From positions 18,827,999 to 18,891,998 of the forward strand of contig NC_092565.1 of assembly GCF_037975245.1 (NCBI RefSeq): a stretch of DNA of 64,000 nucleotides, read 5' to 3'. The position numbers and the translations under genes were made by a program. The notes below the pieces were generated by a model that saw nothing but the letters and a program-made list of their open reading frames with translations, did not search any database and was not told the DNA's origin. The stretch comes from Apostichopus japonicus (Eukaryota > Echinodermata > Holothuroidea > Aspidochirotida > Stichopodidae). Below, one piece after another: positions 4,121-37,100 of the stretch (the stretch's first letter is position 1; each line of letters opens with the position of its first letter).

Positions 4121-4449
4121 ACTTAAAATGTCAAGAATAAACCGTGAAACGCTTGGATATTTGGGTATTTGTCTCCTATTTTCCCCTCTTTTACTTAATC
4201 GCGAGCGGGACTTTGCCCGGCAATTCGTACGTGTTACACGAGCTCGTACCCGCACTATACACGTGAAATGTACACCATGTGCATCTACGTAGTTATGCAA
4301 GACTGTGACGTCAGGTGAGATCATTCTCGCTCGGGATCCTTACCGATGAACCGAACCGCTACGCGGGTTAGTATTTAGTGGCTTCCGTTCTCTACTTAGT
4401 CGATATACGCGCGCGTATGGCAAGCCGTTTTAACATTTACCTCGCAATT

Positions 4450-6060: not shown

Positions 6061-6106
6061 TTAAGTCTAATTGCGAGGTAAATGTTAAAACGGCTTGCCA
6101 TACGAG

Positions 6107-6933: not shown

Positions 6934-7139
6934 GCGCAATATTTGATATAACTGGCTCATATACCATGGCTTTCGTTATCAACGCTGGTCTATATCTCTT
7001 TGGAGCGGCGCTTCTTATTTTTTTACAATGTTGGAAACATTTGCGGCGCAAAAGACGAAGGCGGTCCCGTCAGAGTGTCCATAAGAATCCGTCCTCAGAC
7101 CTTCAAGGTGTTGACAGCCACATCGAAGTGAATGACTGA
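6934..7139 (+). CDS. SLC16/MCT-like transporter, terminal exon (partial gene)
   Basis: This is the last coding exon of a monocarboxylate-transporter-like (major facilitator) membrane protein. It opens after the acceptor TTCCAG at 6933, in phase 1. It encodes (G)AIFDITGSYTMAF, the start of a final hydrophobic segment, then a transmembrane helix (AFVINAGLYLFGAALLIFL), then a strongly basic tail (RRKRRRRSRQ) ending GVDSHIEVND. The same layout is seen in the paralogue's last exon at 39584-39819, which reads [13 protein letters not shown], has an Arg-rich tail and ends [10 protein letters not shown]. The two genes are therefore tandem duplicates. Earlier exons were not found at 1-6930 and probably lie upstream of the window. 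The usual 'GxxxDxxGSY' segment before the last helix supports the family call. Substrate is unknown. Confidence 0.75.
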
Positions 7140-11993: not shown

Positions 11994-12873
11994 ATGAGTT
12001 TCGATGAATATATGTGTCATGGTAAGGAACTAGGTCTTACAGGAAAAGAACTATTAGACTTCGCTAGGGGAACGGGAACAAATCCAAAGGGAACGTGAAC
12101 AAGTCCAGAGGGACGAACGCCAAGCGCTTAGAGAGCTTGAAGCAAAAGATAAAGAAAGAGAACATGAAACCAAAATGAAAGAGTACGATTTAAGACTGGC
12201 AGAAGAGCGAACAATGGCAGATCGTTCTTTTAACGAACATGAAACAAGAAGGGTTTCAAGGGCTGTTGAAAGTAGAAGATTGCCAAAATTGCCGAGTTTC
12301 GACGATAAAAATAACAATATAGACAGCTATCTCAGGCGTTTTGAGAGATATGCTGAAGCCATGGAATGGGGGAAAGAGGACTGGGCACTGCCACTAGGGG
12401 CGTTGCTCACTGGTAGGGCTCTTGAAGTATATTCCAGGATGGGTGACATAGAGGCAAAAGACTATGACCAATTGAAAAGGGCACTTTTGAATAGGTACGA
12501 ACTTAATGAAGAAGGTTATCGCAGGAGATATCGTACTGCAAGGATCCAAAACGGGGAGACTTATGCGCAGTATGTAGTCGGGTTGAAAGGGTACTTACTG
12601 AGATGGGTAGACATGGGGAAAGGCACTAGAGACTTTAACCCATTGGTTGATTTACTGTTAAAGGAACAATTGAGTAATATGTGTGGTAGAGATTTGTCTT
12701 TATTTTTGAGGGAAAGATGCCCCACTGAGATCAAAGAAATGGCAGAGCTTGCCGATAAGTACGTTGCGGCACACGCAAAACGGGAAGACAGAAATTGGGG
12801 TGAAAACAGGTATCAAAGTAAGGTAAAGAAAGCTAGTACTGAAGCTAGTACTGAGAGTGTTGAACCTAGCTAA
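11994..12873 (+). pseudogene. Ty3/gypsy gag (frameshifted)
   Basis: This is the structural (gag) region of an LTR retrotransposon. An ATG at 11994 opens a short frame (MSFDEYMCHGKELGLTGKEL), and a frameshift near 12060-12070 moves it into the long frame 12175-12873. That frame begins as a charged, helical Arg/Glu-rich segment (REREQ.. RDERQALREL.. KDKEREHE). It then reads through a capsid-like block with RLPKLPSFDD, YLRRFERYAEAMEWGKEDWA, LGALLTGRALEVYSRM and CPTEIKEMAELADKYVAAHA. The capsid block resembles the gag of gypsy elements that carry a zinc knuckle. The frame stops at 12873, overlapping by 17 bases the next frame (12857), which holds the zinc knuckle. The element is broken and no longer codes for an intact polyprotein. 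Confidence 0.8.
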
Positions 12874-14345
12874 GGCTCGTGACACTAGAACTTGTTTTAA
12901 GTGCAATCAAACAGGCCATATTGCCAAATATTGCCCGTTAAAAGGTCAAAGGTTTAATAAGTCTGCAGCCCTCCAAACGATAGGGAAAATGTCTGCTGGA
13001 GCAGGGGTAGATAAGGCAAATGAGAATCAGTCACTAGGTGCTTGCATAAAGCAAAATCATGTAAAAGATAGACATGATCGCAAACCTGGCACGTACATTA
13101 GGGTGCCATCAGGAACAGAGGTTCCGGTGATCAGTGCAGTTAACGTAGAAGTCGGTAAGATACCTGTAAAAAGGGGTTTAGTGAACAAATGTCTGGTGGA
13201 CGTGTTGAGAGATAGTGGTTGTAGCACAGTGGTAGTGCGCAAGAAGTTTGTTAACGATGAACAGTTTACAGGTGAAACACAGACTTGTGTATTATTAGAT
13301 GGCACTGAAAGAGATGCGTCTGTAGCATTAATATCTGTAGATACACCATTTTATGTAGGAGAGGTGGAGGCATTGGTAATGGAATGCCCATTGTATGACC
13401 TTATTGTAGGAAATATAAGCGGTGTTAGGGATCCGAATAATCCAAATTCAAACTGGGAGGTCACACAGGTGACCAAAAAGATAGGTGTACTGGGTGCAGA
13501 AGGGGGATTAGCTCAAACACGTAGTCAAAGTGAAGTCAGGAAAGCACTTAGGCCTTTGGCTGTAGCGAATGCACCAAGTGTAGTAACAAAGGAGAAAATT
13601 CTAGATGCCCAAAGAAATGAGATTGGCTTAGCAAAGTTATGGAAATTAGCAGAAAAGGGTGAATCCAGACGATCGGGGAAGGGAAACGACACTAGGTTTG
13701 TCATTCGTCACGGAATGTTATTCAGGGAGTTTATGTCCCCAAAAGAACAGGACGTGCAACCTCTTGTTCAGTTGGTTGTCCCATCAGAGTTTCGTGGTCA
13801 TGTACTTAAGATAGCTCATGACTCTCCCCTGACCGGTCATTTAGGGTGTAACAAGACGTTAGATAGAGTACAAACGAACTTCTATTGGCCAGGTGTACAC
13901 GGAGATGTAACACGCTACTGTCTTTCATGTGACTTATGTCAACGGACGGTGCCAAAGGGTAAAGTTGGAAAAGCCCCTCTTGGTACCATGCCCATGATCG
14001 ATACGCCTTTTCGGCGGGTAGCGGTTGATCTCGTAGGCCCAATCACCCCCATGACCGACCGCAAAAACCGGTATATACTTACCGTGGTCGATTACGCCAC
14101 CAGGTACCCAGAAGCGGTTGCTTTGTCGGGTATTGATACCGAACGTGTGGCGGAAGCGCTTCTAGAGATTTTTACACTGGTTGGAATCCCAAATGAAATC
14201 CTGTCTGATATGGGAAGCCAGTTTATGTCTGAACTTATGAAAGAAGTAGGACGTCTTTTGTGTATCAAGCAGCTCCACACCACCCCATATATCCGCAATG
14301 CAATGGATTAGTCGAGCGCTTTAATGGCACTCTGAAACTCATTCT
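12857..14345 (+). pseudogene. Ty3/gypsy zinc knuckle-protease-integrase fragment (Gmr1-like order)
   Basis: Domains in order: a CCHC zinc knuckle (CFKCNQTGHIAKYCP, near residue 13); an aspartic protease active-site region (LRDSGCSTVVV, near residue 120); then, with no reverse transcriptase or RNase H between, an integrase HHCC zinc domain (residues about 325-365: H..H with CLSCDLCQ); then the first part of the DDE core (VAVDLVGPI, later LSDMGSQF). The frame stops at 14311. The homologous C-P-Q-C-N-G-L region continues in another frame to about 14345 and then ends, so the catalytic Glu lies past a frameshift and the rest of pol is missing. In most gypsy elements RT precedes integrase. Gmr1-like elements of deuterostomes have integrase ahead of RT, which fits this order. 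An internal deletion of RT/RNase H is the alternative. Confidence 0.8.
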
Positions 14346-17332
14346 AGTATGTGATGAATATAGTTTAATGAATAGAATGAATACATTAATGAATATGCAA
14401 CACTAAACAGCGACGGTGTCAGCGTTATAACTAATGCATACTACTCAAGTTTTATTTTTAGATTCCAAATTTAAATTAAAATGTTGAACTGGAAGCCAGC
14501 CACCCGACGTGGAAGTTGTATCCATACATCGGGCTTCTACAAAAGTGATCGTAAAATTAGGTGCCTCGTGGCATGTAGATAAGTGTTTATTTTCATGGTC
14601 GCGCTACCATAGTAATGCAGGTATGCAATGTACACTAAACCTGTCAGATAGTACAGTAGTCCTGTACTACTATAGTGATACCGGTTGTTTTCTTTCTTAA
14701 TTAATTCTTCCTCTACTTTAGGTTTAATTACCGTACAAAGGACCTTGAAAGCGAAATTATTGCTGAATTGAATATTGACTCATATTGAATATACAATAAG
14801 TATGGTAAATCAGTGTTCCTTTGATTAGTTATACTGTAGCTAACTGTTAGTATATAGCCTATAGGTGTCAGTATAATATTAGTAGCCTATAGTCAGATTC
14901 CTATTTCTAATAAAGTTACGCTATTAGGTCTAGTCAGAGAGAGATTGTGAAGATGATCAACTTAGGTCTCTGGTACCTAATGTAGTATTATGTATAACCA
15001 TAGGCTAGGTTTTGCACATTTATTACTGTTGTCACTAGTCTGCTAGTCGCAACGACGATCAGCTACTCTTCGGGAAAGAACCGCTACGTTTGTATTGAAT
15101 ATACATTACAGTGCGTTCTCTCATTGGCTTTGTTTGAGGCATGACGTAACAGAATACGTGGATTTTGTTTGTGTGGATACTTTCGTTCATTAATGTCTCA
15201 TTAATGAAAAGTTTTTGGCAAAATCAGCTCGGTGAAACCTTCTCATATTTCATGGTTCGTCAGATAAGCCGCTTAAACCAAGTTTCCATTTTTTGCAAAA
15301 TGAACAGTTTTATTTTTTTTGTGTCCAAACGCACGGAATCAACTTTATATATTTCCGAGGATGGGTCGGCTACTTTTACAGTGTCGGTAACATGCTGTTG
15401 AGATCCTAGCATGGCTGACCGGTATCATTTGACCTTCTAACACACTTGAGGGCACCGACACTGTGACCTTATACGTTCGATAAAAGTCCATATACAATAA
15501 GGAAGAATGAGGAGATTAGGTACAACAATTACTCCTTTGAATAACTGTTAACGATCGTAGTTCTTTTACGGATACTCAGGATTCACGAATCCAACAAAGG
15601 ATTTGTACTTCTAAGTATGTAGGATGCCTTCTAAGGATGCCTTACAATGTACACCGTTCATCTACTGAAACCATTACCTTCGCAATACCGTTACGGTATG
15701 TGTCAATCTTATAAATTCGTGTATATATTTTTTATATATATATACATATATATATATATCATTGAAATCGTAGTGAGTTGGAAAATCAAGAACAGTGAAA
15801 AAACTTCCAGCCTCCACCGGGATTTGCTTAATATGCGGACACCCTAACCACTAGGCTATGGACGCTGAATGTATGTCCAGAGGTTCGAAAGCTGTAAGGA
15901 AGGTCATAGATATACAAACAATTTAAAATTCAAGAAAGGTGCAACGGTGCAATGGAACCGTGTTATTGTATTCAGTGATGTAGTATAAAAGTGATTCGTT
16001 AATTGATAGTGCCGTTTGCCCGCCGTTTTATTTCGAAAGAATTCTCCAGGATTTAAGGAGTTCAGAGAAAGGGTTAGCTATTTTCTCCAATTATCATTCT
16101 CAGTATCTGGAGCCCCCGTTAAAAACAGAAAGAAATGTCTGTGTGTTTATCTTTATTATAAAGAGAGAGAAGAGATCGAGACATACCTAATCTGATTATG
16201 CCTGTGGCGGATTCTGTAGAGATGAACCAAGTCTTTTCCATAGCATATAAACTGAAAATAAACTGAAACGTGTTGTCAAGTGACATTTTGAAGTTTGAAA
16301 GTATAGTGTGTTTTTTTTTTAACGAAGTCCGACCAGCACATTGCAAGAGCTTATCGTTAAGGTTCGGAATTAGCCATTGGTGAGTATATGCCTACGTATA
16401 TTTTTATCACTATTCTTTACATTCGAATCAAACGATATTAATATCAGGTGGTCACATTCGTTGTGGCAAGGGCCTTAGGGGCCCGGTGAAAGCCTGCTGA
16501 GAGATGCATTTGGCCCTTCACCCATCTAATCTGCACTCGACGCTATGCCATGTAAGTGTAATAAAAACAGATATGTAAGAAAGATGTCTGGCCATATAAG
16601 ACTTACTTGACGGGCAGTTGTTAACCGTTGACTCAACTTTTCGGAACCACTGTGGCCATTGTGACATTCAAGGTGGGCCCGGATTATGAATGAACCCTCG
16701 GAACCTCTGCTGCGCCTCTGGTCACAATATGTTAGGTTTACGGAGTCGTGGCGTGTGAGAGGCCGAGAGAGGGGGGGGGGGGCGCACATAGTTTCATGCG
16801 CACCGTCGATATATTGTAGCTCACTGGTGAAGCCATGTTTAAAAATGTAACATGTAGGTATCAAAGGTGAAACAAATGATCAAACTGAGACTGAAAATGG
16901 CCTTTAGATTTTATCGATAATTCAAGATGTTTTATGGTCAATGAAAGGATGTAAACAATGAAATCATAATTTTTTTCACTGAAAAGTTATAGAACACTTC
17001 AATTTTTACAACTGCGACGCTTGCTTGTTTCCATGGAGACCTCGTATGCCTAATTTTCTGAGTTGTGCATTGGTTATTTACACGTTCGAACGATATTCTT
17101 CCAATGTTCATAGTATAAGTTACCATTCATACGCCGCCATTTTAAAGTTTCCTTCCCTGTACATTTTGATATGTATAAGTAACCGTGTAAACTCCACATT
17201 AAACCTAATGAAAGTGGTACATCTTCAGTGTATTAAAAATCGCACACCAATCACTTTTTCCCCTCTATACAGGTGACATTTTACTATTAAAACCTATCCT
17301 GAATTCGATAATAGGAATACTTACCAAGTACT
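14346..17332. other. Region upstream of the SLC16-like gene
   Basis: No gene is recognised. It contains an AT-dinucleotide run near 15730-15760, a reversed SINE head (15800-15870), a G run near 16771-16781, and GC-richer sequence at 16460-16760 that may be another old repeat. The reverse frame at 16864-16526 has no domain character. The promoter of the transporter should lie at its right end, but I cannot point to a TATA box or initiator with confidence. Confidence 0.4.
15800..15870 (-). mobile_element. tRNA-derived SINE head fragment
   Basis: Read on the minus strand it gives CATAGCCTAGTGGTTAGGG, then GTCCGCATATTAAGC, then CAAATCCCGGTGGAGGC. This is an A-box-like segment shared with the SINE at 9178, followed by a mutated B-box region. 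No body was assigned. Confidence 0.55.
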
Positions 17333-17480
17333 ATGAGAGACTTTATTCGAAAAAGATGGGGCTACATCGTCTGTGCGGCTGGCTTTTTCATATGTTGTGG
17401 AATACTTTCCCCGATTAATTCCTATGGTAGACTGTTTACTGCAATACAAACCGACCTAAATACGACCACGGTACAATCTG
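17333..17480 (+). CDS. SLC16-like gene, exon 1
   Basis: The start ATG at 17333 gives [20 protein letters not shown] short basic N-terminus precedes the first hydrophobic helix, as in MCT proteins. The exon ends at TCTG, with donor GTAAGT at 17481, phase 1. This is the first ATG that leads into TM1, and no acceptor is needed upstream. Confidence 0.85.
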
Positions 17481-20400
17481 GTAAGTGAACAAACTTAATG
17501 GGTAACTATAATGTCTCACTTATAGTTGATTTTCCTATACGGTATATAGTAAAATATTACGAAAATATAACATTCGTGTCCCCAAAGCATCAGTTAAACG
17601 TAATATCATATATACTAAAAATGTAAAGGTGTCATTTGAATGTTAAATTGTTCACTTACAAAATGTCAATCCATAAAGAAAAACAATACTCAAACAGTAC
17701 AATCTATTATTACCTGATGAATTTTGACAATTTACCATGTCCGAATTACAGATCTCTCGTTTTTTTCGGTTTCTGATCAAAACTTGGCAATGTGACTATT
17801 TTTACCAGTTGTCGAATTAATTAGATCGAGTACTGTTAATTGAAACAGTGTACGTGAACAGGTTAAACACAGGACGAGACATTTTCCATATGTTCATGAA
17901 AAATAGCATCGACTTTCGACAATTGCTGGTTGGATGCAGTAATTCACGTCTGTGACCATTAACTGAGAGTGAACAACTCATCACCATATTGAAATATTGA
18001 CATTTAAGGGCCAAACCTTGCAAGCAGGCACGTTAGCCAGCAATTCTGAGGTGGAAGGGCACCAACAATGTAAGGAGTGGCAAAAACAATATGAGGACGG
18101 GTATCACAATAAAAGGACGGGAACCAACAATATCAGGAGCGGCACTGACAATATATGGCGTGGCACCACCAATATAATGAGTGGAAAAACATTATCATGA
18201 GTGGCACCAACAATATAAGGACGGGTACAACAATATAAGGACGGGCACCAACAATATTAGGACGGGCACCAACAATATCAGGAGCGGCACTGACAATATA
18301 TGGCGTGGCACCAACAATATAAGGAGTGGAAAAACATTATCATGAGTGGCACCAACAATATAAGGACGGGTACAACAATATAAGGACGGGCACCAACAAT
18401 ATCAGGACGGGCACCAACAATATCAGGAGCGGCACTGACAATATATGGCGTGGCACCACCAATATAATGAGTGGAAAAACATTATCATGAGTGGCACCAA
18501 CAATATAAGGACGGGTACAACAATATAAGGACGGGCACCAACAATATCAGGACGGGCACCAACAATATCAGGAGCGGCACTGACAATATATGGCGTGGCA
18601 CCAACAATATAAGGAGTGGAAAAACATTATCATGAGTGACACCAACAATATAAGGACGGGTACAGCAATAAGGACGGGCACCAACAATATCAGGACGGGC
18701 ACCGACAATATCAGGACGGGCACCAACAGAATAAGGACGGGCACCAACAATATAAGGACGGGCACCAACAATACAAGGCAGGGCACCAACAATATAAGTA
18801 CGGGCACCAACAGAATAAGGACGAGCACCAACAATATAAGGACGGGCACCAACAATATAAGGACGGGCACCAACAGAATAAGGACGGGCACCAACAATAT
18901 CATGACGGGCACCAACAATATAAGGACGGGCACCAACAATATAAGGACGGGCACCAACAATAGAAGGACGGGCACCAACAGAATAAGGAGGGGCACCAAC
19001 AATATAAGGACGGGCACCAACAGATAAGGACGGGCACCAACAATATAAGGACGGGCATCAACAATATAAGGACGGGCAACAACAATATAAGGACGGGCAA
19101 CAACAATTTGAGGACGGGCACCAACAATATATGGACGGGCACCGACAATATAAGGACGGGCACCGACAATATAAGGACGGGCACCAACAATATAAGGAGT
19201 GGCAAAAACAATATAAGGAGTGGCACCAGCAATATAAGGACGGGCAACTACAATATAAGGACGGGCACCAACAATATAAGGACGGCGCCAACAAAAGGAC
19301 GGGCACCAACAATATAAGGACGGGCACCAACAATATAAGGAGGGGTACCGACAATGTAAGGACGGGCACCAACAATGTAAGGAGTGGCAAAAAACAATAT
19401 AAGGAGCGGCACCGACAATATATGGAGTGGCACCAACAATACAAGGACGGGCACCAACACTCATATCCTGTAACTTGTAAAAGTTTGGTACTCACGGTGG
19501 TGGTACAGATCGGGGCGATGACGTAATTTTAGCGGCAAATTTAAATCAACATTTCATACCTAAATTGTTATGTTATGAACACCTCGTACAAACCTTCAGA
19601 ATTAATCTCATAATTTCTATCAAAATATTACTGTACACTACATGGACTATTGAAATCGGAGATCAAAAACGTGTCGATGTTTCTTGATATTGACTTCAAT
19701 CCTCTCTCACCTGTCGTATATAAATAAATACACACTCTGATCTACCAAGCTTACAATCATTGGTAACAGTTTGAGCACAGCGCCCCGCTAACTCCTTCAA
19801 ATAGCCATGGAGGTAAATCTGTGTTTACCTCCATGAAATAACTCACGTATCCGTCGAAACAGCTGTTACTGAAAACATAATTATTTTAAAGGCAACCGTG
19901 TTCTGTTAGTGTTTATTGTTTTGGATGTTTCTCCAACAGGCTACTTGCGTAGGCATTCATTTGCATCTCTCCTAATTCTGATCACTTCGCGGTCTTTCGT
20001 TAAAGTGTATTCAGTATAGTGGTTATCAGACCGTCGTGATCACGTTGTCACGTAAGGGGACAGTCGCTGAGTGCCGCAGCACAGTGAACTTGTTTCGCAG
20101 TAGCCTGTCTCTTAGAGACACTATTTATTTATTTTGGTTTTATCTTAAACTGAAAATAAAAAATAAAAAAATATATTCAAGCTAATATCCAATTGTTGGA
20201 TTTCCGAATCGTGCAAATGCGCATTTCTCTTTAGCGCAAATGTGGCTTCACGTACTGAACATTCGACCGTTGCCATGGCAACCAAAATCTCCAACAACTT
20301 TTCTTCTTGTTTTTTTCTGTAACATAGGCTGGATCGGATCCATCTCATGGGCTAATAGCTTTTTTTTCAGTCCACTTGCTGTTGCTATCGAACGCTGCAT

Positions 20401-23400
20401 CGGTCATCGGTTGACGGTAGTTCTTGGATGTACGCTTGCGTCATGCTGTTATCTTGTGACGTCATTGATGACAACCTACATAGGAGTGCTGGTGTGACAG
20501 GGAATAGTGTCCGGGCGTCTCACGGACACTATTCCACGGGAATTGTGTCCGTAGGACAACTTTCTCGGGGGGAATTGTGTCCGGCGGACAGTATTATCTG
20601 TCCGGACGGACACTATTAACTAGGAAAAAACGTCCGTGTGTGGTGATTATCTGTCCGCGCGGACAGGATGAGAGAATAGCACGGATAAATGTGTCCTACA
20701 AGCTCTTCTGCATGGAAACGTAGTGCAAAAACATCAGGACTGCAAGGCTTCTTTGGAGTACGCCTTTTCATCTTAATTGCATTTCTTAATGGCAGGATTT
20801 ATAGAGGAACTTTAGACCAATTTCACTACATGATGAACGGCTGAAATATATGGTCATTAATGATTTCTTGCATGATACTATTTGGACAGACACAAATGAA
20901 TGGAAATATCAATTTAATTTAAAATTTATTGCAAATTTAATTCTCCTTCATGTTCTCTGCTGCATAAGATAAATACATTTCTATAAAATGACAAAAGTGC
21001 TGCAAGACTCGTGCAACATCCTACGTCTATTGTGACATAGAACAACTGTATCTGTTTCTTTATTTTTAGTACAAGCTGTTTCAAATACTTTGTTTTATAA
21101 AAAATCATCCGATTTCCCTTCTACTTTTAATACTAATGCTTGACAACCATTGACAATAACAGATAGCCTCACATATAGTAACTTTTGAAATCTTGGGGAT
21201 CTCAAGACAAAATGACATTCACATGGAAAAAAAGGTTACATAAATCAAAGTAAACCATGCTTTGGCGTCCACAGTTGTAGCCTAGCAGTATTTGTTGGTC
21301 AGGCAATCAATTCAAGGTAGACTACTGTTAATCCAATTATCGACAGGCTGTGAATGTGAACTATGGTGAAAATACTTGGGAATTCCTTTTCATGTGATAT
21401 ATTTTAAGATTGGGCAATGCCTAGCTGGTTGGAAATGGTACTTGGGAAGCAATATAAAATCATATGGTATAGGAGGAGCAGAGGGTTTGTGTAAGGTGTT
21501 TTCGTGTGTTCATGACATATCAACGATCGAATCATGATATATTGCCTGCACAGTCAGGCAGTGCATTATTCATTAGAAGGTATTTCCAAACGAATATCTC
21601 ACCATGCACAACTGGTATTGATAAACACCAAAAACGTTTGTTGCTACGATGTATTGTTAATGGACATAAAGGCCTCTAAGCTATATCATTTATTTTCAAC
21701 AAAAATCAGCTGAAAGTATGTTGCATTGGCTTCAAATATGCCAGATACTAAAATATGGTCACCTATGGTCAAAATTATTGTTTTTGTACCACCTGTAGGA
21801 AATTTACCTCACTGGGACATTCTGTCCTTTTGCATGTTCTTTTAAAATGTCTGAGAAAACTTTGGAGATTATAAAGACCTCAAGGAAAGTACTTCTTGAT
21901 GTCACAATACAAGTTTGTGGCCTATACAGACTACCTTCAAATGACATGCTGCTGGTCACACTAAGTATCAGGCTTAATATAAATACTGGGAAAGGAGGCT
22001 GTGTGAGAACCAGTTCTACTACACTCAGATTGTTTAGTGTTAGTCAAAGTATCTCAATGACTATTGTTCAAATGTTGGAAAAGAAAAAAAAAATGAATTA
22101 GGGCTAATTAGGAAATGCAAGCTGAAGCCAGTGAAATCATATTTGTACACAATTCAGACAACTTGGTATCAGTTAACATTTCTCTTGCTTTTGTCTACAT
22201 ATTTGGCCCACCTTTTCCTTTGACATTAAATATTCTTTGCACTAAAAGTTTGGCCTTGACACAGTCAACAGTATAATCACTTGAATCCTTTACTGGGGAG
22301 CATCCAAGGCCAGTCAACACTGAAAATAAAAATACACATATATACACATACATATGTACACATATACAAACATATACACACATACATACACACATACATA
22401 TACATATATATATATATATATCTATACAAAACGTACAAGTGCAGCTGTCTACAATAAATTATCCAGATAACCATTTTGTAAATAAATAGCAGCACGATAA
22501 ATAAAACTATTTCTATACACATTAATTCTGAATTTTGGTGTTATTGCTTTGTTTCTCAGATTATACCTAGTAGTTTCTCGAAGTAGAGAGTTAAGTTCGG
22601 TTTGCAAAGAATGTCTGTCATTTCTCTGTATGCAATTTACACTTCTAATGAACTCATTTTTAGCAGCATTGTTTACAGTACTCATAAGAAAGTTAAAATC
22701 TATATTAAAAATTTTAGAACAATACTTTAAAAAAAAAAATTCTCTTATTATCTTTAATTCGTAAAAAGTGATACCAAGCAGAAACAGCATATATTAGGTG
22801 TGGTAAGATATTGGCAGTAAAAACTCTTTTCCTTACATCAACATGGAAATATGGAACTATATACGATAGAGTTGAGACTATGAAGTACACCCGTTTAAGT
22901 ATTCTGCTTATATGACCACTGAAACTTAGTTTGTCATCAATACAAACACCTAGATATACTGTATGATGAGTGCGTTCTACTTCTGCATCTTTAATTGAGA
23001 TTTTAGTTAACTTACATGATAAAAGACCTTTTCTATGAAAACGCTTATTCAGTTGCAACAACTACATAATGCATCACAGATAAAGAAACTATATCCCAGT
23101 TGTTACTTGCCTTGATATACTTGAATGGCATATGAGGACAGCTGTCAAGTAGCATCTATGCATAAACCAGGCTGTGGTTTCTCTGATCCAACATGAGTAT
23201 CATTTCATATGAATGGGACATACTGACACACTTGATCTTAGTAATACAGCAAGAAGTGACAAACAGTATATTCACAATGACAGATGCTGACACAAATGAC
23301 CACTGATAGCCTGCTTGTACTCATTCAATGTGATACATACTACAGTAAATATGAGATTTCTTCCAGCTTCCTCATCTTGAGATATCAAGTTTTAAAGGTT

Positions 23401-26026
23401 TACAAAATTTGACCACTGTTAATCTCCACAATAACAAAGGCCTCTTTTAGCCATGTGGTATACTTACAGACTAAATATGATATCTGTTCAGCTTCCTTTC
23501 TTGAACTTATAATTTACAAGGTTTTCACAACTTGAACCCTGTTTACCCTTTGACATCCACCCCAAAAATATAGGATATAATCAATATGATTCACATACAT
23601 ACCAAATCTTACATTTTCCAAGCTTCCCTTCTTTTTACCTGAAGAAAGACGAACTAACTGCCATTTACTGTCCTGGATGTGACACATGAGTTTATAGATT
23701 ACAACTACCAATAGAACAACTTAATTTCTATGTGTGGTAAAATATATGCTTGTAATGTGAGACTTTTGTTAGAATTTTGTCACCTTAGAGTCCTTTGAAC
23801 TTCACAATCAACAAAAACAATCCCAGGATTTACTTATACCATCATTCTGACTGGAGTTCTCTGGGAACATTGCTCTTGATTCAACCTTACAATGACATTA
23901 CTTATGCATTATAAGATAATAGAAATACTAATTCTATTCAGTATACTAATTGTGTGCATATTTTTCTCCTTGCCAGGGGGAGAAAAACAGACCCTTTGAT
24001 ATATGTGGAGGGGGAGGAAGTGTGTGTGTGAGGGGGGGGGGGGTTATAAATTGAAGTGTGGTTTGAACAGAGGGAATGTGTGAATTAAATATTGCTTAAT
24101 ATAAGGACACTTATTGCCGTTTCCAAAAAGTGATCTGACAGCATTTATGCTTTGTTTTCTTGTTGCTTGTTGTTTTTAATCTAACTTGCACATATAAACA
24201 TACTTAAACTTCAAGCAGGATTTTTTTTCTGGAATTGTCTATCAGTGGGGGTGGGGGGACAAACAATAACGATATGCATGAAAGAAAGAAACCTTTTTAT
24301 CGTAAATTATCAAGTTCTTGTCTTAACCGCTGGTTGTTATACTCAAACACCTGATCATCTCCAACCTCATCATATTCAGCTTGGATAGCCCTGGTAAAAT
24401 GCTCTGACCCTTGGCACCAACCTATACCTAAACATAAAAGTTTAAAATAATTGACTGAATAGAGAAGTTAATAAGTAACCACATTCAAGCTAAAAAAATG
24501 CATGTTTACACCACATATCATATTGAAAAGATAATTGTGCATCAGGATCATTACTTTGGTAAGCTTTTGCCCAGTTGACTACAGGCTGCTTCAGCTTCTG
24601 TTTCGGTGCAACCTGTGACAAGGTGGTAGAGATGGTCCACAGCATGAGAGACAAGAACGTCATTGAGGTAATTCAGCCTGCAGAAAAGGACGCATGAATA
24701 GTAAGCATTGCTTCAAAGTTACAGAAATTAAATAGAAAGTAAATATTACTGTGAAAACATGATTTCAGCAATCATTACGAATGGGTACTTCAAATTAATG
24801 TATGTTGCAGCATTCGGCAATAACAAGGTGAAGCATTCAGACTAGCAATATTGTTTATTGCCACAAATGCAGATCTGATCCTCCATGAGCATGCGAGCAT
24901 TCAGACTGATCCCCCAATTGTGGGTCTGATCCACCGTGAGCATGTATGGAGTATATTCAGACTAGCATGTCGTTCGCCCTTGTGGGTCTGATCCTCCTTA
25001 ACCATGCAATAATTTATACCATCGGATGTTGATCACCCAAATTGTAGGGTCTGATCATCCTTGAGCATGCGAGAATGCAAACTATAGCAAGTTGATCGCC
25101 CTTGTAGGTCTCGTCCTACTTGAGCATGTGAGATTCAGACTAGCAAGTTGATCCCCTCATTTGTGGGGTCTGCTTGATCCTCCTTAAGCATGCGATTATT
25201 CAGAGTATAGCAACTTGAATCCCCAAATGTGGGATCTGATCCTCCTTGAGCATGCGAGCATTCAGATATACAGTATAGCAAGTTGATAGCCTATTGAAGT
25301 CTGTACGCATTCCTGTGTATTGTATCAAGGCCAAGCTTAGAGTGAGATCTGATCAAGTGTGACCTATTTGCAGCACTAAGGTCAAACTGTTGCAAACAGA
25401 TCTCTGTTGAATCAAAGCAAAGAACACAATCATAGCACACTAGAAACTTACTTAACCATGAATTGTAAAAATAGGCCTTACGAAAATTTTTTGAAAAACT
25501 TGCCACTTGGCCAGTGTAAGGGATTCCCTCTCTCCTTCAGCTATCATAGCACAGAAAATTCCTTGGGAATATTATTATAATATTACTCATATTACTAGCA
25601 ATATTGTGAGCAATGCCATGTGCTTCTTTCAAATAGCGTTAATTCAATGATGTAACATGAGCTGTTTTTTTTTCATGAATCTGGCATAATTTATAGTTAT
25701 AGGGTGTACAACTTACTCGATCTTAGTAAAGCAGTGTGATGTGACAAACAATAAATTTGCAATATCACAGGCTATCCTGAAATGATGATGACCTCAACAA
25801 CAGGTTTCTTTTAATAATTGTGATACATCAACATACTAAATATGACATCTGTCCTTTTGAAATATTGTGTAAAACATGGTTTTCACAATTTGAACCCTCA
25901 AACGATCCATTGACCTCGGCCATAGGCGTACGAGGCGGGGGGGGGGGGCAGTCTTAAAAAACAAATTTCCAGAGGACAAGAAATTCAGGCAAAAGTCCTG
26001 AAAAATTCGGGCAGCCTATGAGGAGA

Positions 26027-26101
<75 letters not shown>

Positions 26102-29100
26102 TATATATATATAGATATATATATATAGATATATAGATATATATATGCAGTAGCTTGCCCAAACGTTTTTCAAATTTTTGCCCGACAATTCATTGATTTT
26201 CTTTATTTAGCATCATGATGCCCGAATATTTCCGTGTAACACCACCGTAAGCGCAGCTCACCTGGGCTACCACGCTTTTTGCACGATCAATTTTTTTCTA
26301 ACTAGTCAACTGTATACCTGGACATCTCCGACATGAGTTTATATAAGAAACATTTTCTTTTTGATGGAATGGATGGTGGGGGGGGGGGGGGAGTGCCTAC
26401 AAGCCTAGAAGTACAGGTTTACCACATTCTTTGTTACATTTTATACTGTTTTGTGAGACAAATTGCAGTCTCACCCGACATAGCGACATTATCCCGCCTA
26501 CGTGTCGTTGAACAATGAATGTTTTTCTGGAGGTACTGTAGCTGAGTACTGTGTTATTATAATAAATACGGTAACTAAATATGAGCTTAAAAATATACTG
26601 TCCTATTTTTCCTCTTCAAAGTGATGTAACCATTTTTTCTTCCTCTAATTTGCCAAATTTTTGTAGGGAAGTGTAAATTTCTAAAATATGAGATTATAAA
26701 AGAAAGAATGTTTATATGCAACTTGCAAGGCCTCAGATGTGCCGTTCCCGGCAATCTGGGAGGCTTTTTTTGCCAAAAATGTTCCTGTACGCTACGCGCC
26801 AACCGATGGTGGCGCGCCGCTTAGATAGTGTCACGGGAACTTTCGGACACAAAACTTTCTGCCCCCCAAACTAAAATGGTCCCGTACCCCTATGACCTCG
26901 GCCCACAACATTAGGCTTCTGACCCAAATGACCTTAAACAATACAAAACCCTTCTTGTGCTCAACAATGTACTCTTTTGCACAAACTATGGGATCAATCT
27001 AAGCTTCGATTCTTGAGATATCGTGTTTACAATGTGGGCGGTACACACATGCCAGCATGAATGAGTAGGTTACAATTATTATCAAAGCCAGGAAAGCTGC
27101 TCTTCAGAAGTTGAACATTATATTGCAGAGTTTCAAACTGACATCACATAAAATTATCTTCTCGAAACTAAAACAAATGAAATTTAATTTCTGAAAACAA
27201 TTGTCAGGAAACTGAAGTTTTCTTCTAATTAACTTATTCCTGTCTTTATTATTGTTGAATGGTTAATTTGTTAGGCCATTAAGTCGAAACTGATTTATTG
27301 TGTGAATACAGCTACAGTCCTTTACCCTCACATAAGCCAGCAAATACTCAGAACTGATTAAGTTGCTGACTATTTTTAAGGAAATTCTGGAGGAATCATG
27401 CCAATCCTCCTCCTCCCCCACCCCCCCCCCCCCCCAAAAAAATACTGCAAAGAAATCTTACTTGTGCAAAATTCTTTAAGTAAAATTAAATTGAATTTCT
27501 TCTTCTGAGGAAGGCCTGTGGTACTGTTCATAAGTGTGTACAGTCCTTTCTCATTCACAGCCTTCACTTCATACGGCCCAATTAGCCGAGAGTTTTCAAG
27601 CTTCCCTCCTATTCGGGCATCCTTTCTAGCATTCCGTACGAGAACACTGGAACCAACTTCGAAGCTCTGAATAAAATAAAATCCAGCAGATATACGTAAA
27701 CATCATAATACAATGCATATGTTGCCATTCATTTAACTACAACTTCAATGTACAACATAGCATTATATAATTACCTTTTTTGGTGCCTATTATCCAAATT
27801 CTTTTTTTGCCGTTCTTGGGCTTTGCCAATATTTTCTTTCACAACACCTTTGATTATGTCCCACGACTGTGACATGAGTTGAAAAACCCTCTCCCGCTGT
27901 GCATCGCTGCAGTCTGTACTTTGGAGCTTCTGGTTGGACAATGGCGTCTTCAATGTCGACTGGTAGCATTGCTCTCTGGATATATGAAGATAAATTAACA
28001 ATCAATTATTCACAACACTTTGTTGACTGAAGAATAAATAAATTTTTATATATTTTATTTTCACTATTAAGACCATTGAACCAGAAATTTGAGTCACATG
28101 ACATACTCAAACCAGCACAAATATAAAACCCATATATATATTCTGTGCTGTTATACGTCCAACTTGCATACCAGCCAATTATGATAAATATATAGTATAT
28201 ATATGAAAAACAAAACCAATGTCAGTGGCATTAATTGCATGTATCTTTTAAATTAATGGGCATGCATTTACAGTTTAATGAATGTTCATATTTTGTACTT
28301 GCTGCAGAGTGTACCATATACAGGGTTAATATTTATTTGTTTAGATATTGTAACTTAAATTGGGTTATTGATGGTCCTCTATTTAGCGGTTTTTCCCAGG
28401 ACCTGGCATGTGTCAAATTAGATTTTATCATACAGAGGACTGGTGTAGCTATGCAAGATTTGTCCAAACTCTCTTATCCCTGATTGCTTTTCTCTGTATA
28501 TGGCCTTAGCAAATGTAAATCTCTATTCAGCAATGGTAGGTTTAAATTATTACAAACCTTCCAAACATCACAGCAAAAGGTGAAAGACCTATTGAACCAT
28601 GTTTGGCTGTATGGTACCCCATGAGAACTGAAGACAGCATTTCATCTCAGTCATCTTGGTTTTCATTGACAACCTTGATGAGTGACCTTTGCAGAGTTTG
28701 GTTGAATCTTTCATCAAGCCCATTGGTATGTGGGTGGTAGCTAGAGGATTCTCTGTGTTACACCCCTATCATGTCAAACAGGGACTTGTTCAGAGCATTA
28801 ACAAATTCTCCTCTCTGGTCTGAGATGACAATTTTCATGCACCCAAATCTAAATAAATGGAAACATTTAAATAACTATTGTTAAAGTATTGATTACGAGT
28901 AATGTAATGAACTACTGGCATCTGCAGAATGGCTGCATGGTTTAATCAGGAAATCATTTCAGCACTGATTTAAAAAAAAAATTAAGTTAAAAGCACTGAC
29001 CATATCCCACTAACATTTTATTGACATTAACTTAAAAAACAACTTCTATAAATTCCTGTAACCATTTGGCCGCTTTCTGGGTCACAGTTAAAACAGTGCA

Positions 29101-32100
29101 AATGCAGGTCTGCGTAACTAATTCCATGTAAAGTAGATGGATATTTACCTGGCCATGGTTTCAAACAGAAAGTTTGCAACAGTTTTTGCTGTTTTGTTTC
29201 TTACAGCAACAGCCTCTAGCCATTTTGAAAAATAGTCACATAGGGCTTATATGATGTACTTATTTCCATTGATGGTCTCTGGAAGGGGTCCAATCATATC
29301 CACACCCATCTAAAAAAAGAAGTAAAATGGCATTCAGAACCATACACAATCTAATCATACAACTGATGTTCAAGTGATTTATATCTGAGTTTTGTAAAAT
29401 GCTAAACATTCAATTTTTTTTATTTTTTTTTTATTGTAACTCACACTGGAAGACTCTGTTACCAATTTTTTTCTTCATTACCAAACCTATTACTTACTGA
29501 CTTGTCAAACCCAACTGTTATATGGAAGTCCAATGGGAAATCTCTGAAGTGAGATGCAAATCACATGCAGTGATCTAGCTGACAATCTAGCTGGTAATTG
29601 TCACTAGGGACTATCATAGTACCTGGATGAGTGATTGATAGTTAGTCAGAAAATTGCCTTGGAAAATGTCAGTGAGATGACAGGGTTACACCTAACTGAT
29701 GTAGGAAGCATACATTGGTACAACCATGGAGTTTACCTCCATCGTACAACCTGTACTTTGGTATATATATATTGTAAGCATTTAGAAATGTTAGAAATTA
29801 ATCTTTGAAGGGAATTTGCAGAATTTTTTATATTAATGACAGAAATTCACACTGTAGAGTTACAGTATGGAAGGAAAGACTTCTTGGTTATTAACCAAGT
29901 AGCAAATTTTACTTAAATAGATGTTGAAATAAGCATATGGGTTCATTGGGGATGAATTTTGGACAAAAGGATATGGCTTTGTTGGTACTTTAGTTATGAA
30001 CTGCATATGAATGTACTACCTAGGACATTTTCTCGGATACTTCTTTATGACAACAATTCAACTACTGAACTCTGTTATGTTCATGTGTCATTCTTACTTC
30101 ATATCACAATTCAGTTTTCTTTTCATTTTGAAATTCATATCAGATAATTATGAAGTCCTATGTAAAGGTTTTCCTGTTGCTTTAATTATACGCAGCTAAA
30201 AAAAATACCAACATGTGTTCTTAGCGGAATTTGTGTTTATGGCTGCAGTACATGAAAATTCGCGACGGTACTGCAAGTCATTAAGTCTACTGAATGTACC
30301 ACCATCATGATCATCTTTAATATATGCTTAGTAAATTATAACTTTAAGAACAAATGAATGAGCTAGATCTTTCATTCTCTGGGTAATCTCCACACATACT
30401 CCTTATACTCTTGCACTGGCCAACAAAGGGATGCAAACTTTAAGCATCGGTTGATAACTTGATATGCATATGGTGAATGACATAGGCGTAGGAGCCTCAT
30501 TTGATTTGGGGGGGCTGTAACGACTTGCCCGAAAAATATAACCAAAATTTTTTCGCGCGCTCCACGCGCGTTCCACATGTTAATGTGCATATCATATAGG
30601 CATCCATCAGTTATTAAATCACCTGCCAATAACATAAAATCATTTTCCGTGTTATTACCCTTCCATATTGGTTAGAATTATTGGGGAAGTCGTTACAACA
30701 ATAATGATAATAATAATAATATAAGATTAACCATTGAAAAACACATTGCAAATTCTTCATCATTTTCACTAGGTGCCAGTGGCGGAGCTAGGGGGTATTT
30801 GGTCAGGGGGGGGGGGAGAGAATGGTCTGTAGGGGCGCTTTTGACACTATCTAAGCGGAGCGCCACCACAGGTTGGCGCGGAGCGTACAGAAATTTTTTG
30901 AGTAAAGTTACTCCCTAGATCGCCGGAAATGACCCTTCCCGAGCCTTGCTAATTTGCAGGTAAACGAAGAATAAATAGGTGTCATCGCCATTTGTCAGAA
31001 AATTGCACCAACAAAATGTGACAAATGTCAATAGGTATTTGAGAGCGCAATAAAAAAGTCAATAATCGCGAATAAGTAAAAAGTGGTAAAAAGCTGAAAG
31101 GGCGCCAGCAGTCCATTTGAGTCCGTCAGGGGGGGGGGGGGGCATCCGCTCCCTCTGACTGTATGGACGCTCCGCCACTGGTAGGTGCACGCAAAGTTCT
31201 CAGCATATTGCCCAAATTTTCACCAAAAAAAATTGTGAAAAAAATGCAAATTATTATTCTTTCAGTAGGTGCCCGAAAAAATTCTTATTCTCGAATTTTC
31301 ACCAAAATATTGAAAAACACATTGCAAATTATTATTCTTTCAGTAGATGCCCGAATAATTCTCAGCATATTGCCCGAATTTTCACCAGAATATTGAAAAA
31401 CACATTGCAAATTATTATTCTTTCAGTAGGTGCCCGACAAAAATTCTCAGCATATTGCCCAAATTTTCACCAAAATATTGAAAAACACATTGCAAATTAT
31501 TATTCTTTCAGTAGATGCCCGAATAATTCTCAGCATATTGCCGAATTTTCACCAAAAAAAATGAAAAACACATTGCAAATTATTATTCTTCCAGTAGGTG
31601 CCCGAAAAATTCTAAGCATTTTGCCCAAATTTTCACCAAAAAAAATTGTGAAAAAAATGCAAATTATTATTCTTTCAGTAGGTGCCCGAAAAAATTCTTA
31701 TTCTCGAATTTTCACCAAAATATTGAAAAACACATTGCAAATTATTATTCTTTCAGTAGATGCCCGAATAATTCTCAGCATATTGCCCGAATTTTCACCA
31801 GAATATTGAAAAACACATTGCAAATTATTATTCTTTCAGTAGGTGCCCGACAAAAATTCTCAGCATATTGCCCAAATTTTCACCAAAATATTGAAAAACA
31901 CATTGCAAATTATTATTCTTTCAGTAGATGCCCGAATAATTCTCAGCATATTGCCGAATTTTCACCAAAAAAAAATGAAAAACACATTGCAAATTATTAT
32001 TCTTCCAGTAGGTGCCCGAAAAATTCTAAGCATATTGCCCGAATTTTCACCAAAAAAATTGGTTGGGGGGGCTGCAGCCCCCCCAGCCTCCTACGCCTAT

Positions 32101-35100
32101 GAGTGAATGACTTTGCAGTTACAATCATACAAACAAATATTGCTTTTAGATGACAAAAAACAAAGTGATTTAGTAATAACTGTGCCGCTTGTGAACAGTA
32201 TTTTCGACCCAGGCCTAGCATTTATAAGCTGAACGCATAAGGTGGTCCATATGTATTCCATTGACATGTAAGGCCTATGAGCTAGGATAGGTATTTGAAG
32301 AAAAAATACATGTTACACAACTTCCATTGCAGATTCCATCAAAATCAGGTGTACATGTGCCTCCTGCTGAAATGCCGATGAAAATAATACTTAGGTGGTG
32401 AAATTGTCACCACTCGCATCCTACAAGGACTCTTACAGAAATAGAAATGAACCGGTATTTCTATTGATTTAGACACCTTCTCAGATCCCTTTCTTTCAAA
32501 TTAGGGTCTTATACCAAAATACTCCTATCATTTGGTCAAATAAGTTCATGATAACATGTGGGATAAAACGAAAGCAAATTGTTGTGCATTTTTATTTGCT
32601 CTCTTTTCAATTGTTTTTCTCAACACCCAGCTATCCTCCTGAATAGAAATTTATTCACCCACCCTAAAATTTGTCAAAGAGATTACACTAGGCCTATATT
32701 AGTTTTTAGGTCCATTCTGGTCACTATTTTAGCAATACTACAGTATATCACCAAGCAGTGTCTTCATGTGATAATACATTGCAAATTTAATATAAATGAT
32801 ATAAACTTGGTTTAACCATGGAGCTATAATCCCAGGTTTATAGCTCCATGGTTTAACCTGCACTAATTTAATTGCAACATTGTTTTGTGCATATATTAAC
32901 AACCTTAATTACTGTGGTAGAATGTTTAATGAATATTCATACCATAACCATGTACATGTTTGCATAATTAAAATATCACCAGCAAAAAGGCCTATTAAAT
33001 CGTACATTATTAGCCAACACAGCTAACCTTCTGACAATGAAGTGATGGGCAGGTGGCCAACTGATTACCTATAGCATATATTCGACCTGCTGCAGTGTCT
33101 GTGCACATCCCGGCAACAATGTATTAAAAAAATATGGGAAAACCTCTAAAAAGAAAGAGATAATAAAGTAACACTCATTAATTTAATTGATCCTCCAAAA
33201 TGGACAAGACAGGGACCCCCCCCCCCTCTCCCTTGCTACCTTGTGTTTTAACTAGTAAGGGGACTAATCCCAGGACATATCTTTCAGAAAATCTGAAAAG
33301 TCCTATCCTGAAGATTTCTTTTTGTTTGTTACCTAGCAATTTCAAACACATAATCATTATTGAAATTAAAAGCTTGTATATTGATGGTAGCATGGGTACA
33401 CACTACACAGCTGATATGTAACTGACAGCTGATCCGGAAGATTTGGAAGCTACCACAGTAACATAAATTATACCAAGTAGGTTTATTTCAGAGATTGCCA
33501 ATTGGAGTGGCTTAAATTTGAATAAAACAAATTATTTGCAAATAGGGTTAACTCTCGAAATCCTACTCCTAGGCTACAGCAGGCTAGCCTATAGTAGCCT
33601 AATACTATTCGTGTCTTGCCGATTAATTATGCATCACGATATTCTCTAACACTAATAAAGTTTAGACTTTTCAGTTCTACTCTTAGGTGATTACAAATAA
33701 TAAAATATACCTATAATCTGCAAGGCCCAAATGGCCAATGCACTTAGTTCAAGTTATATGCATCTATGGAATCATTTTGGCCTGACTTTGGAATCCGTAC
33801 CATATGAATGTGCAAGCTTAATTCGAATCGGCAGAATAACAACTGTATAATCCGGCTGAACGTACGTTTCTTCAGTGGAAATAATTCCTAAAAGTTTTAT
33901 ACAAATAAACAAATAATACACTTACCGCCAAACCCTTCTTGTAAGCTTTAATTTTGTGGGCTTTGGCCAAGGGCCTATCTTCGTTGCCATGTGGGCCGAC
34001 GTAAACTAGATTGGCATCTCCCGTCAGTCTAAAGCTCTTCGATCTTCCCCTTATCGATCTTTCTGGATTTAACGTAGACTTTTCAGGGTACAGTCCTGAC
34101 GAAAGATATTTTCCAATGATAATGTAGGCCTACTCGTCATCGGTATCCACCTCAGGAGAAGTCATCTTGTAATATCAGATCGGGCTAAGTAAGCTAACGG
34201 TCTCAACTCTTAATGCAATTACTGTGCGTGCAAATATTCAACTACTAAGAAATTTTGGGCTTGCGACATGTAACGTTAACGACGTAGACGGCACATTCGG
34301 CTTACTTCACTGAGTAAACAGCAGTATACATTTTACAGTAGAATGCAAATACGCATGCGTGAAATAAAAACTTTGTCACACCCAGAACGTAGAGCGGGAG
34401 ATTTCCACATTTCCCGCGTACTGAATAAAATATATTGACTCTGACCAGGAGTTTTTCCATAACAACTCCCTGCTCTGACCCCGGATTTGACCTCCATGCT
34501 CCGGATGGCGGGGAACTTTCCGCCGCCGCGTACCGGTTGAAATACATTTACCTTCAACCTCTACATGGTTGATCTTTCTCCAACGTTTAGAAATTCCGAC
34601 CTTCCAAACAACTACCCTAATGGTAGTAACGATTGATAAGCAGCAGAGTCAGACAGACATGACTAATTAGTTCGGAAGATAAGTTTAACATTCATTATGC
34701 AGCCTTCTGACAGTCGACGATCGAAATAGAGCGGACAGCGTCCCTCTGGAGTGTAGTCTCCATGATAATAATAACATTTTGCCACCTCTTCCCACAACAG
34801 TCGACACTGGAAGTATTAGTTATGCTTTAACCGAGTTTTGAGGGTGCATGCTGACCGATATATAACATTGTCAACCTGGTCTTCGCTAGTAAATTACCTC
34901 CTTTTAAGTAATAAGGGAACATAGATAGGGCCAGAAATGTTTGTCACTCAACAGAACCACGTTAAAGCTCTTTAAAGAGAACCCGGACACTTTCCACGGT
35001 GGCGTAGAAAGCAAGGGAAAGTGTCCCTGAGACACTATTCACGCAAATGGGACACTATTTTCTAGTAATAAGTGTCCTACGGACGCCCGGACACTCATTA

Positions 35101-37100
35101 CTGCCACACTGGCATTCTTAGGCATTATATGCGGTACAGCACTTTGCTTCTCTATACACGCAATGATGTGTGTTCTCTTCAAAGCGTTCGCTGATTCTGG
35201 TCGTCAGTCAATGGCTATGAGTATCGCACTTGTAGGGGCTTCAGTTGGTAAGAAACTTTCAGTAAGTTTTAATTAATTGATATAATTTATTTCATTGTTC
35301 ATTTCTTAAATTAACTTTCTTAGTGACATTTGCAGTGGTTGAATGCATAGTATAGATTCATTCGATTACATGGAAGCACTCAGAGGGACATGTTTTAAAT
35401 GCTTCCCTCCTCTCTTAAACCCGTCTCCTCCTCAAATAATGCGCGTTTGATAAGTTTTACAATTAAGTCACACCCTACAAAGCTTATTTATAATATTCTT
35501 GTTAAATCAAAACTTCTGACACCCACCCCCCATCCCCCCTCCGGAGCTGTTTCTAAGTCGGAACAAATTGGAAACTTCAATTGCAACTGGAATAATGTGT
35601 TCCTGTTACCTAATTTTCAATTAAGATTTATTCATAGAATAATTGGTACCAACTTCTTTCTTCACGAAAGACGACTCCCGCCTTTGTAGATTTTGAAATT
35701 CTGAGGATGAGACCCGCGAACTCTATTTTGGTCCTGTCCAGTTTACTGAAATGTATTGGCAAGCTATTTCTGCAACATGTCTTTGATAATAACCTTTGAC
35801 CTCAATTGAGAATATGTGATTTTTGGATTATTACCGTATATGAAATGAAGAACCCAAGCAACTTGTTTATACTGTATGCAAAATATTTTATTTTCAATTG
35901 TAAAATGCATAACAAAATTCCTGACGTATCCAGTTTTCAATGTAAGTTCCTCTCTGTGAGACAAGTAGATCGTCATATATATTGCTTAAATTGTAATTTT
36001 CAACACGGAACATGTTTGAAATATTATTCTGTGGCAATTGGTCAATTTCTATATATTCTTAAATGGTAAACCACTCTCTTTATTTCTTCGTAGGTACCAT
36101 TTTTCTCTCCTTGACCTACGAGAAGATTGTACCTATCATAGGATGGAGACAGACGCTTCAATTATCTTCTGCCTTCTGCGCGATACTTTCCATCCCTGCG
36201 TCATTCTTGGTCACTGCAAGAAATGAGACATCGACTAAGTCAACGGAAACAACCACCGCTGTGATTGACGAGAAACAAGAAAGTCATAAAAACGAAGATA
36301 GACCCATCTCATCGATAAGTGACAAGGTTGATAGAAACATAGTAGATCAGTCTGCGGTAGATACTACTAAAGTTCGGGACAAGCATTGGCTACGCCTCAT
36401 CGTGTTATGGAGGGCGTGGTTCATATTCTTCGCTATGTCATTTCCAGCAATGTCTTGGTCTGTGTATTGGGTGAATTCGGTAAGTGTCTAGTTTTATAAG
36501 TACCGATGTTTGTTAGAAGTTAAAATCTAACGTTATAGCATAAAAATTAACCAACATTCAATGCTGATCTAACATGTCATTGGTATAATAAGTTATATAT
36601 ACAATATTATTCTTTCTTCCTGGAGCAGTGGCGTGCGCATGGTTTCAAAAGTTGGTCGCTAAATTCTAAATTCTGATTTAGGTAAAGGCATGACCGCTGT
36701 GAAAGGGGCGGAGACGAATGACAGATTTTTATAAAGGAGAGATGTGGCCCTGTGGTCGACTGCCATGTAAGGGGGGGGGGGGGGGTCCTCTTCCAGAAAC
36801 AATAACAGTTTAGACGTCGAATGGTGTAATCTATGGTATATTAAGACTTTAAATTAGGTCTATAATTAGGATTAAACTTGTACACTCGGAAGAGTGGTCT
36901 TAATAGTCCCTGACTGAAAGTACAAATCACCCGACTGAACTATTTCCCCCGACTGAAGATGGAAGTGGACGGGCTATGACCCCTGTCCCCCTCCCTTCCC
37001 TTGAGCACGCCAATTTCCAGAGACATTCAAAATATGTGTACTAAAAATTGCAACTGTCACCATACATAGAATAGTATATACAAAATAATAATAATAATAA

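Follow-up and report, generated by a model that had tools for sequence, protein, structure and literature searches.

The window analysed here is a stretch of 64,000 nucleotides from the holothurian Apostichopus japonicus (contig C5, NC_092565.1, positions 18,827,999-18,891,998), in which exon 2 of an SLC16/MCT-like transporter gene is split by a 14,616-bp element at 20493-35108. The element resembles a non-autonomous Ginger1 transposon. It is assigned to the minus strand after its transposase remnant, and is recognised by terminal repeats, by a target-site duplication (TSD) of CTGG at 20489-20492 on the left and 35109-35112 on the right, and by ten other copies in the genome. The host gene lies on the plus strand, and its coding sequence could be reconstructed from exon 1 (17333-17480), a left part of exon 2 that terminates in the TSD (20328-20492), a right part of exon 2 (35113-35247), exon 3 (36094-36479), exon 4 (37864-38086), exon 5 (38612-38755), and exon 6, which includes the stop codon (39584-39819). 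When one CTGG is kept, YIGVL is joined to AFLGI, and the six exons total 1437 bp with consistent phases and GT/AG at all ten remaining splice sites. The resulting protein of 478 residues matches Pfam MFS_1 (8.5e-23) and is closest in the Protein Data Bank (PDB) to monocarboxylate transporter 1 (MCT1; 2.9e-11), without a gap at the YIGVL/AFLGI join. An earlier sequence-only reading of this DNA had proposed the two CTGG copies bounding the insertion, the restored join with its six exons, and a host frame free of any other damage. The boundaries proved exact to the base, and the reconstructed coding sequence bears out the other two proposals, with no further lesion. As it stands, the host frame terminates at TGA 20495-20497, after residue 105, and the allele is most likely a loss-of-function (null) allele of the SLC16-like gene. 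We consider it very probable that a recently active non-autonomous Ginger1-like transposon jumped into the target TGCTGGCA within exon 2, thereby truncating the protein at residue 105.

The termini of the element read TGTGACAG ... CTGCCACA. The left end TGTGACAGGGAATAGTGTCCGGGCGTC and the reverse complement of the right end TGTGGCAGTAATGAGTGTCCGGGCGTC are identical at 22 of 27 positions without gaps and have a 13-mer in common. Both ends carry TGTNR (TGTGA and TGTGG), as is also the case in other copies, and GTGTCC/GGACAC repeats occur subterminally. With gaps allowed, the terminal similarity reaches ~100 bp. As a control, the 250-bp ends were aligned locally with gaps, and their score was set against mononucleotide shuffles and random pairs of 250-bp stretches from the window; it was reached in 0/1000 shuffles and by 3/3000 random pairs, so the terminal repeat alone is not decisive. 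The insertion is settled by the recurrence of these ends, which delimit copies elsewhere in the genome, together with the 4-bp duplication.

A search for copies sharing the termini had been suggested, and we carried it out over the whole genome (671.6 Mb in 35 contigs) with the left 216 bp of the element. Among 75 candidates, 40 scored matches were found at 97-100% identity on many contigs, a number that is a lower bound on the size of the family. What had been taken for one long-decayed copy is instead a member of a dispersed family with at least 40 left ends. Ten other copies were read over ~16 kb each, and nine of them have both ends; the tenth (c8b) showed no right end within the stretch read. 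Full copies, the window's included (n=10), span 13,030-15,728 bp. Eleven further copies were sampled at the left end and nine of these also at the right, where the end was seen in six. Among the 16 copies with both ends, again including the window's, the TSD is exact in 11, has one mismatch in three and is worse in two. The exact duplications are CTGG (4), CCAG (3), CCGG (1), CCTG (1), CGGG (1) and TTGG (1), i.e. CTGG or its complement CCAG in 7/11 and CCGT/ACGG in none. The family target has the consensus TG-CYGG-CA, and a G precedes the TSD in 16/16 copies. The host target TGCTGGCA agrees with it, which accounts for the possibility that this exon could be hit. At C3:22050922 and C3:22053062, two left ends lie 2.1 kb apart with an identical 16-bp flank, which suggests a local duplication of the element's start.

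Two other accounts of the interrupted exon can be judged against the same genome. The first is an old intron at the join, the finding that the sequence-only reading had named as fatal to its own proposal. The host protein has 34 matches in the whole genome, and at nine other loci exon 2 is uninterrupted, with residues ~48 to 148 or beyond matching in one stretch at 24-46% identity. For one of the nine, the search row includes a TAA, but the sequence itself places this codon past the exon. Two loci were read through the join, namely the tandem neighbour on C5 (YIGVL-LFMGF) and C5:9.01 Mb (YGGLL-LFYGV). Because the nine loci match the exon in one piece, two of them read across, an old intron at this place was rejected. 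The second is an assembly error in which a repeat was mis-joined into the exon, a concern that the repetitive nature of the element raises. We regard it as very improbable, since each junction has the full terminus of the element beside a 4-bp duplication that agrees between the two sides, the site fits the family target, the host exon continues exactly across the element, and the 34 protein matches in the assembly contain no second or empty copy of host exon 2.

The transposase gene of the element runs on the minus strand and is split by GT-AG introns. Exon A (29149-29309) encodes the first part of the DDE core and exon B (28558-28848) its second D and the E. Exon C (27775-27975) has a broken frame in the window copy. 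The exon D region (27449-27664, the 3' limit being approximate) contains the GPY motif LIGPYEV, read by eye only in a stretch without a Pfam match. The DDE core of the window copy matches Pfam rve at 5e-7, slightly under the curated cutoff; its nearest solved structure is the Ty3 integrase (PDB, 3.3e-8), and its best NCBIfam match is the IS481 model (1.7e-15, far below the curated cutoff). No H2C2 zinc finger was found in the window copy by pattern scan, and a six-frame Pfam search of the window element listed no family except one sub-threshold rve_3 match. One family copy, C15:27887390-27903390, has ~2.3 kb extra within the transposase region.

A TAA in exon A (29247-29249) and a TGA in exon B (28647-28649) are found at identical transposase positions in 11/11 copies read. 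A third stop in exon B, TAA 28758-28760, marks a subfamily of four copies (window, C21, C6 and C8:25.09M). In a genome-wide protein search (the best 150 of 1315 matches), 46 rows with at least 84% identity contain stops, and a TGA is among them in 45, verified as the same codon only in the 11 copies read; the one exceptional row lists two TAA. No open frame of at least 150 residues exists in the transposase region of any copy read. Because two stop codons are common to all 11 copies read, the window-family copies descend from an ancestor whose transposase was broken before they spread, and presumably they were moved in trans. This agrees with the first of two explanations offered previously, that a decayed element was moved in trans, with the amendment that the decay belongs to the family's ancestor, because the element is one member of a dispersed family.

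The layout of the element recurs in all ten other copies read, so a mosaic of recent nested insertions, such as had been noted within it, was rejected for its bulk. Only the segment at 30481-32092, with an 83-bp tandem array, is confined to the window copy and its sister on C21, and the nine other copies read lack it. An open-frame remnant common to several copies (22452-23061, minus strand) resembles, on inspection by eye, the 3' portion of a non-LTR (long terminal repeat) reverse transcriptase and has no Pfam match. Rfam and tRNA scans gave no match, nor did plasmid and viral-contig searches with the element's left end.

The age of the insertion was approached through the divergence between copies, counted as substitutions only with simple repeats left out, a measure that dates the split of two copies and not the insertion itself. 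The nearest copy, on C21, differs from the window's at 34/12,980 sites (0.26%), the other two subfamily members differ by 1.3% and the remaining seven copies by 2.4-2.9%. Over 11,325 sites, the window copy has 10 private changes and the C21 copy 15. With 0.09-0.13% per lineage, 0.15-0.34 disabling lesions are expected in a host gene evolving neutrally, which escapes them altogether with a probability of 0.72-0.86, expectations that rest on an assumed transition/transversion bias and assumed indel ratios. The insertion is probably young, judging from these differences, and its youth means that the undamaged host frame needs no special explanation. The other earlier explanation, that the gene is kept functional in some way, is not needed, as zero lesions are expected with a probability of ~0.7-0.9 at 0.26% divergence; the argument that the host gene must be functional since it is intact was likewise dropped, because lesions are not expected at this age. 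Zero host lesions exclude at 95% only ages above 1.2-1.9% substitutions per site. The insertion might be older than it appears if the window copy were the donor of the C21 copy or if gene conversion had lowered the divergence, the gene having been kept, or lost without a lesion yet. We give this a small but appreciable chance: a lesion-free host is compatible with ages up to that limit and the divergence is that of the copies, but the two TSD copies are identical, the host has no lesion, and 2.0-3.2 lesions would be expected at 1.25% divergence.

A further possibility is that the gene still functions because the element is removed at the RNA level, with CTG/GTGTGA as the donor, or because exon 2 is skipped. 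The insertion created a donor-like GT at 20491/20492, which scores 1.8 compared with 1.4-6.5 for the host donors and ranks 25 of 723 GT sites, on a weight matrix. Exon 2 totals 300 bp from phase 1 to phase 1, so skipping it would preserve the frame, and the host frame is undamaged. However, the phase-compatible acceptors score only 0.4 (35208) and -3.7 (35073) against 6.4-10.6 for the host acceptors, splicing to 35208 would delete 32 codons, skipping would remove 100 residues of a 12-helix transporter, and the undamaged frame is expected from youth alone. Rescue by splicing or skipping is thus possible but unlikely, with a low chance in our estimate.

On the favoured reading, the element jumped recently, and presumably in trans, into the target TGCTGGCA, duplicated CTGG and cut the protein at residue 105, and the resulting allele, probably one of lost function, may still segregate in the population. 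Several points weigh against it. Five of the 16 family TSDs are inexact. The partner in trans is deduced only from shared ends and stop-free exons. An insertion older than 0.26% implies would follow if the C21 copy derived from the window copy, and in-frame rescue is conceivable via exon 2 skipping or the weak splice sites.

Where might a working transposase come from? Among the best 150 of 1315 matches, the DDE exon occurs without stops at 83-84% identity at four loci (C12:11.107M, C9:19.189M, C17:21.118M and C17:21.021M), and the window family's right terminal repeat is present in three of these four relatives (C12, C9 and C17:21.01M), with differing flanks. The C12 relative, read without reaching its left end, has exons A, B, C and D all stop-free, an H2C2 exon (8.5e-16), an rve match of 2.4e-10, above the curated cutoff, and a GPY motif, SWLGPYKV, identified by eye. 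At the corresponding place, the window family lacks a stretch of ~1.7 kb that includes the H2C2 exon. Downstream of GPY and on the same strand, UCH exons follow (3.6e-6 and 1.5e-5, both above the curated cutoff). Such USP/UCH exons, of the C19 deubiquitinase class, were seen at C12:11111900-11116000 and in the C9 relative, with the Cys-box NLGNTCYM and the His-box GHYSCAKRV kept in both; in the PDB, the Cys exon has at best a weak match, to USP21 (0.009). The two relatives are 95-98% identical in the stretches compared. Their UCH exons differ by one synonymous and one non-synonymous change in the Cys exon and by zero and two, respectively, in a 45-codon stretch around the His-box, which is too few to argue for selection. 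Neither OTU nor Ulp1 was listed in Pfam scans of the window element or of the sense frames of 17.5 kb of the C12 relative, and when the relative and the window copy were scanned for the YPYY pattern, no convincing site emerged in either.

The C9 relative begins at 19,208,494 with the flank CTGG, where 878 bp are 87% identical to the window's left end, and it ends at 19,181,815 with the flank CTAG, the two ends lying 26,680 bp apart. In the C12 relative, blocks homologous to the left half of the window element keep their order, and the C9 relative has them with one local rearrangement. The window family would accordingly be a deletion derivative of a larger lineage, minus the H2C2 exon and ~11-12 kb with the UCH exons. 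The 13-16 kb family would have arisen from that lineage by such internal deletions, and the transposase of the larger (~25-27 kb) stop-free lineage may have acted in trans to cut and join the ends. Non-autonomous elements that arose by deletion and are mobilised in trans are familiar from the Ac/Ds kind. The window family is like these in having kept its ends and lost a working transposase while stop-free relatives with the same right end persist in the genome, and unlike them in that the derivatives, at 13-16 kb, exceed the autonomous Ginger1 elements described in 2010.

Separately, the short stretch at window positions 21710-21940 is met again within the C12 and C9 relatives and close to other copies, in either orientation, which gives it the look of a dispersed repeat in its own right. 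A further 25 stop-free copies of the DDE exon were found at 74-78% identity among the same 150 best matches. They are clustered with a spacing of mostly ~170-230 kb, on C19:31.17-32.30M, C20:0.34-1.40M, C4:29.05-29.43M, C14:0.22-0.63M, C11:0.20-0.53M and C21:0.26-0.44M, and the clusters on contigs C19, C20, C11, C21 and C14 are no more than ~1.4 Mb away from a contig end. In one clustered unit, exon B is open and only part of the element is kept.

We give about an even chance to the broader proposal that the genome houses a giant Ginger1-like lineage (~25-27 kb) coupling an integrase-type transposase to a USP-class (C19) deubiquitinase, dead 13-16 kb derivatives of which reached dozens of sites by mobilisation in trans over the last 3% of divergence, a coding exon being among these sites. 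Some observations weigh against the reading of the window family as a deletion derivative mobilised by such a lineage. The relative at C17:21.118M had no match in the right-end or UCH stretches fetched; the TSD of the C9 relative has one mismatch (CTAG/CTGG), and this relative was read over 14,182 of its 26,680 bp, its DDE exon being known from a search row only. UCH was seen at just two loci, 95-98% identical to each other, and UCH would likewise have been carried along in a large duplication shared by both. The C9 right-end flanks differ from those of C12, however, and the C9 relative has its own family ends, which count against such a duplication.

The assignment of the element to a known type can be considered in the light of these features. 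Published Ginger1 elements are 2.6-7 kb long with terminal inverted repeats of ~40-270 bp, have a TSD of CCGG (75%) or CCGT/ACGG (24%), and, in those with an identified C-terminal domain, encode an OTU or Ulp1 protease there, with none in Ginger1-1_BF (Bao, Kapitonov and Jurka 2010, PMC2836005). The element studied here shares with Ginger1 the TGTNR ends, the 4-bp TSD with a C/G-rich target, the Gypsy-like DDE integrase with GPY, the GT-AG introns in the transposase and, in the C12 relative, H2C2. It differs in the size of its copies (13.0-15.7 kb, with one relative whose ends are 26.7 kb apart), in a looser TSD, with CCGG in only 1/11 exact cases, and in the UCH (C19) exons downstream of GPY in two relatives, as opposed to OTU or Ulp1. 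We call the element Ginger1-like for these resemblances but do not count it as a member of Ginger1, since tests for the published target specificity and protease domains came out negative. The label Ginger-type given by the sequence-only reading accordingly stands for the ends, the 4-bp TSD, DDE with GPY, and the introns, and fails for the size, the target and the protease.

Other types were compared in the same manner. Ginger2/Tdd has TGTNR ends, an integrase-type transposase and a 4-bp TSD in animals, as here, but Ginger2 uses an RTATAY target and is without GPY (PMC2836005); it is ruled out by the C/G-rich target TG-CYGG-CA and the presence of GPY. A Gypsy LTR retrotransposon, with direct LTRs and intronless pol, was rejected, since the ends here are inverted repeats and the integrase is split by GT-AG introns. 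Polinton/Maverick elements (6-bp TSD, PolB and capsid genes) do not fit a 4-bp TSD and six frames that list only a sub-threshold rve_3. Neither do IS3EU/GingerRoot elements, which, as described in PMC10045372, have a 6-bp TSD and mostly TA..TA ends, compared with 4 bp and TG..CA here. In Trichomonas vaginalis, XP_001314237.1 is a Transposase_11 protein linked to a C19 peptidase (PMC2836005). Both cases associate a DNA transposon with a ubiquitin-hydrolase domain, whereas the transposase here is a Ginger1-like integrase. A literature search, with later Repbase entries outside its scope, found no Ginger linked with UCH or a deubiquitinase.

The surroundings of the host gene contain further SLC16-like sequences and repeats. 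A complete tandem SLC16-like paralogue lies directly left of the window at C5:18820841-18825325, with 45% identity in exon 2, and a lone SLC16-like last exon lies within the window at 6933-7133. Between this exon and the host gene, there is a Gypsy-type retrotransposon (12058-14358) whose gag frame includes a SCAN domain (1.6e-6) and whose pol has H2C2 and rve. Host intron 1 contains a 68-copy array of a 21-bp unit (18053-19459), and 21-bp palindromic arrays (ATTCCACTTAAGTGGAAT) are found upstream at 4447-6073.

The insertion itself is an ordinary event caught early, a jump into an exon that happened to fit the target. Its interest lies in the family, an integrase-type (Gypsy-related) group of transposons that can be dated by shared stops and private changes. 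Mobilisation in trans would have moved a cargo of 13-16 kb, about twice the largest Ginger1 of the 2010 description, and the relatives carry a deubiquitinase of a class that this description does not give for Ginger1. The mechanism by which integrase-type transposons excise, and the reason for their repeated association with ubiquitin/SUMO proteases, were left as open questions (PMC2836005, Discussion). If the C19 deubiquitinase is truly part of the lineage, it would be a third kind of ubiquitin/SUMO protease beside the OTU and Ulp1 of Ginger1, and the repeated independent acquisition of deubiquitinase-type proteases would imply that integrase-driven cut-and-paste transposition requires such an activity. 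Both the excision and the protease questions become testable with a living family that has recent derivatives and stop-free relatives.

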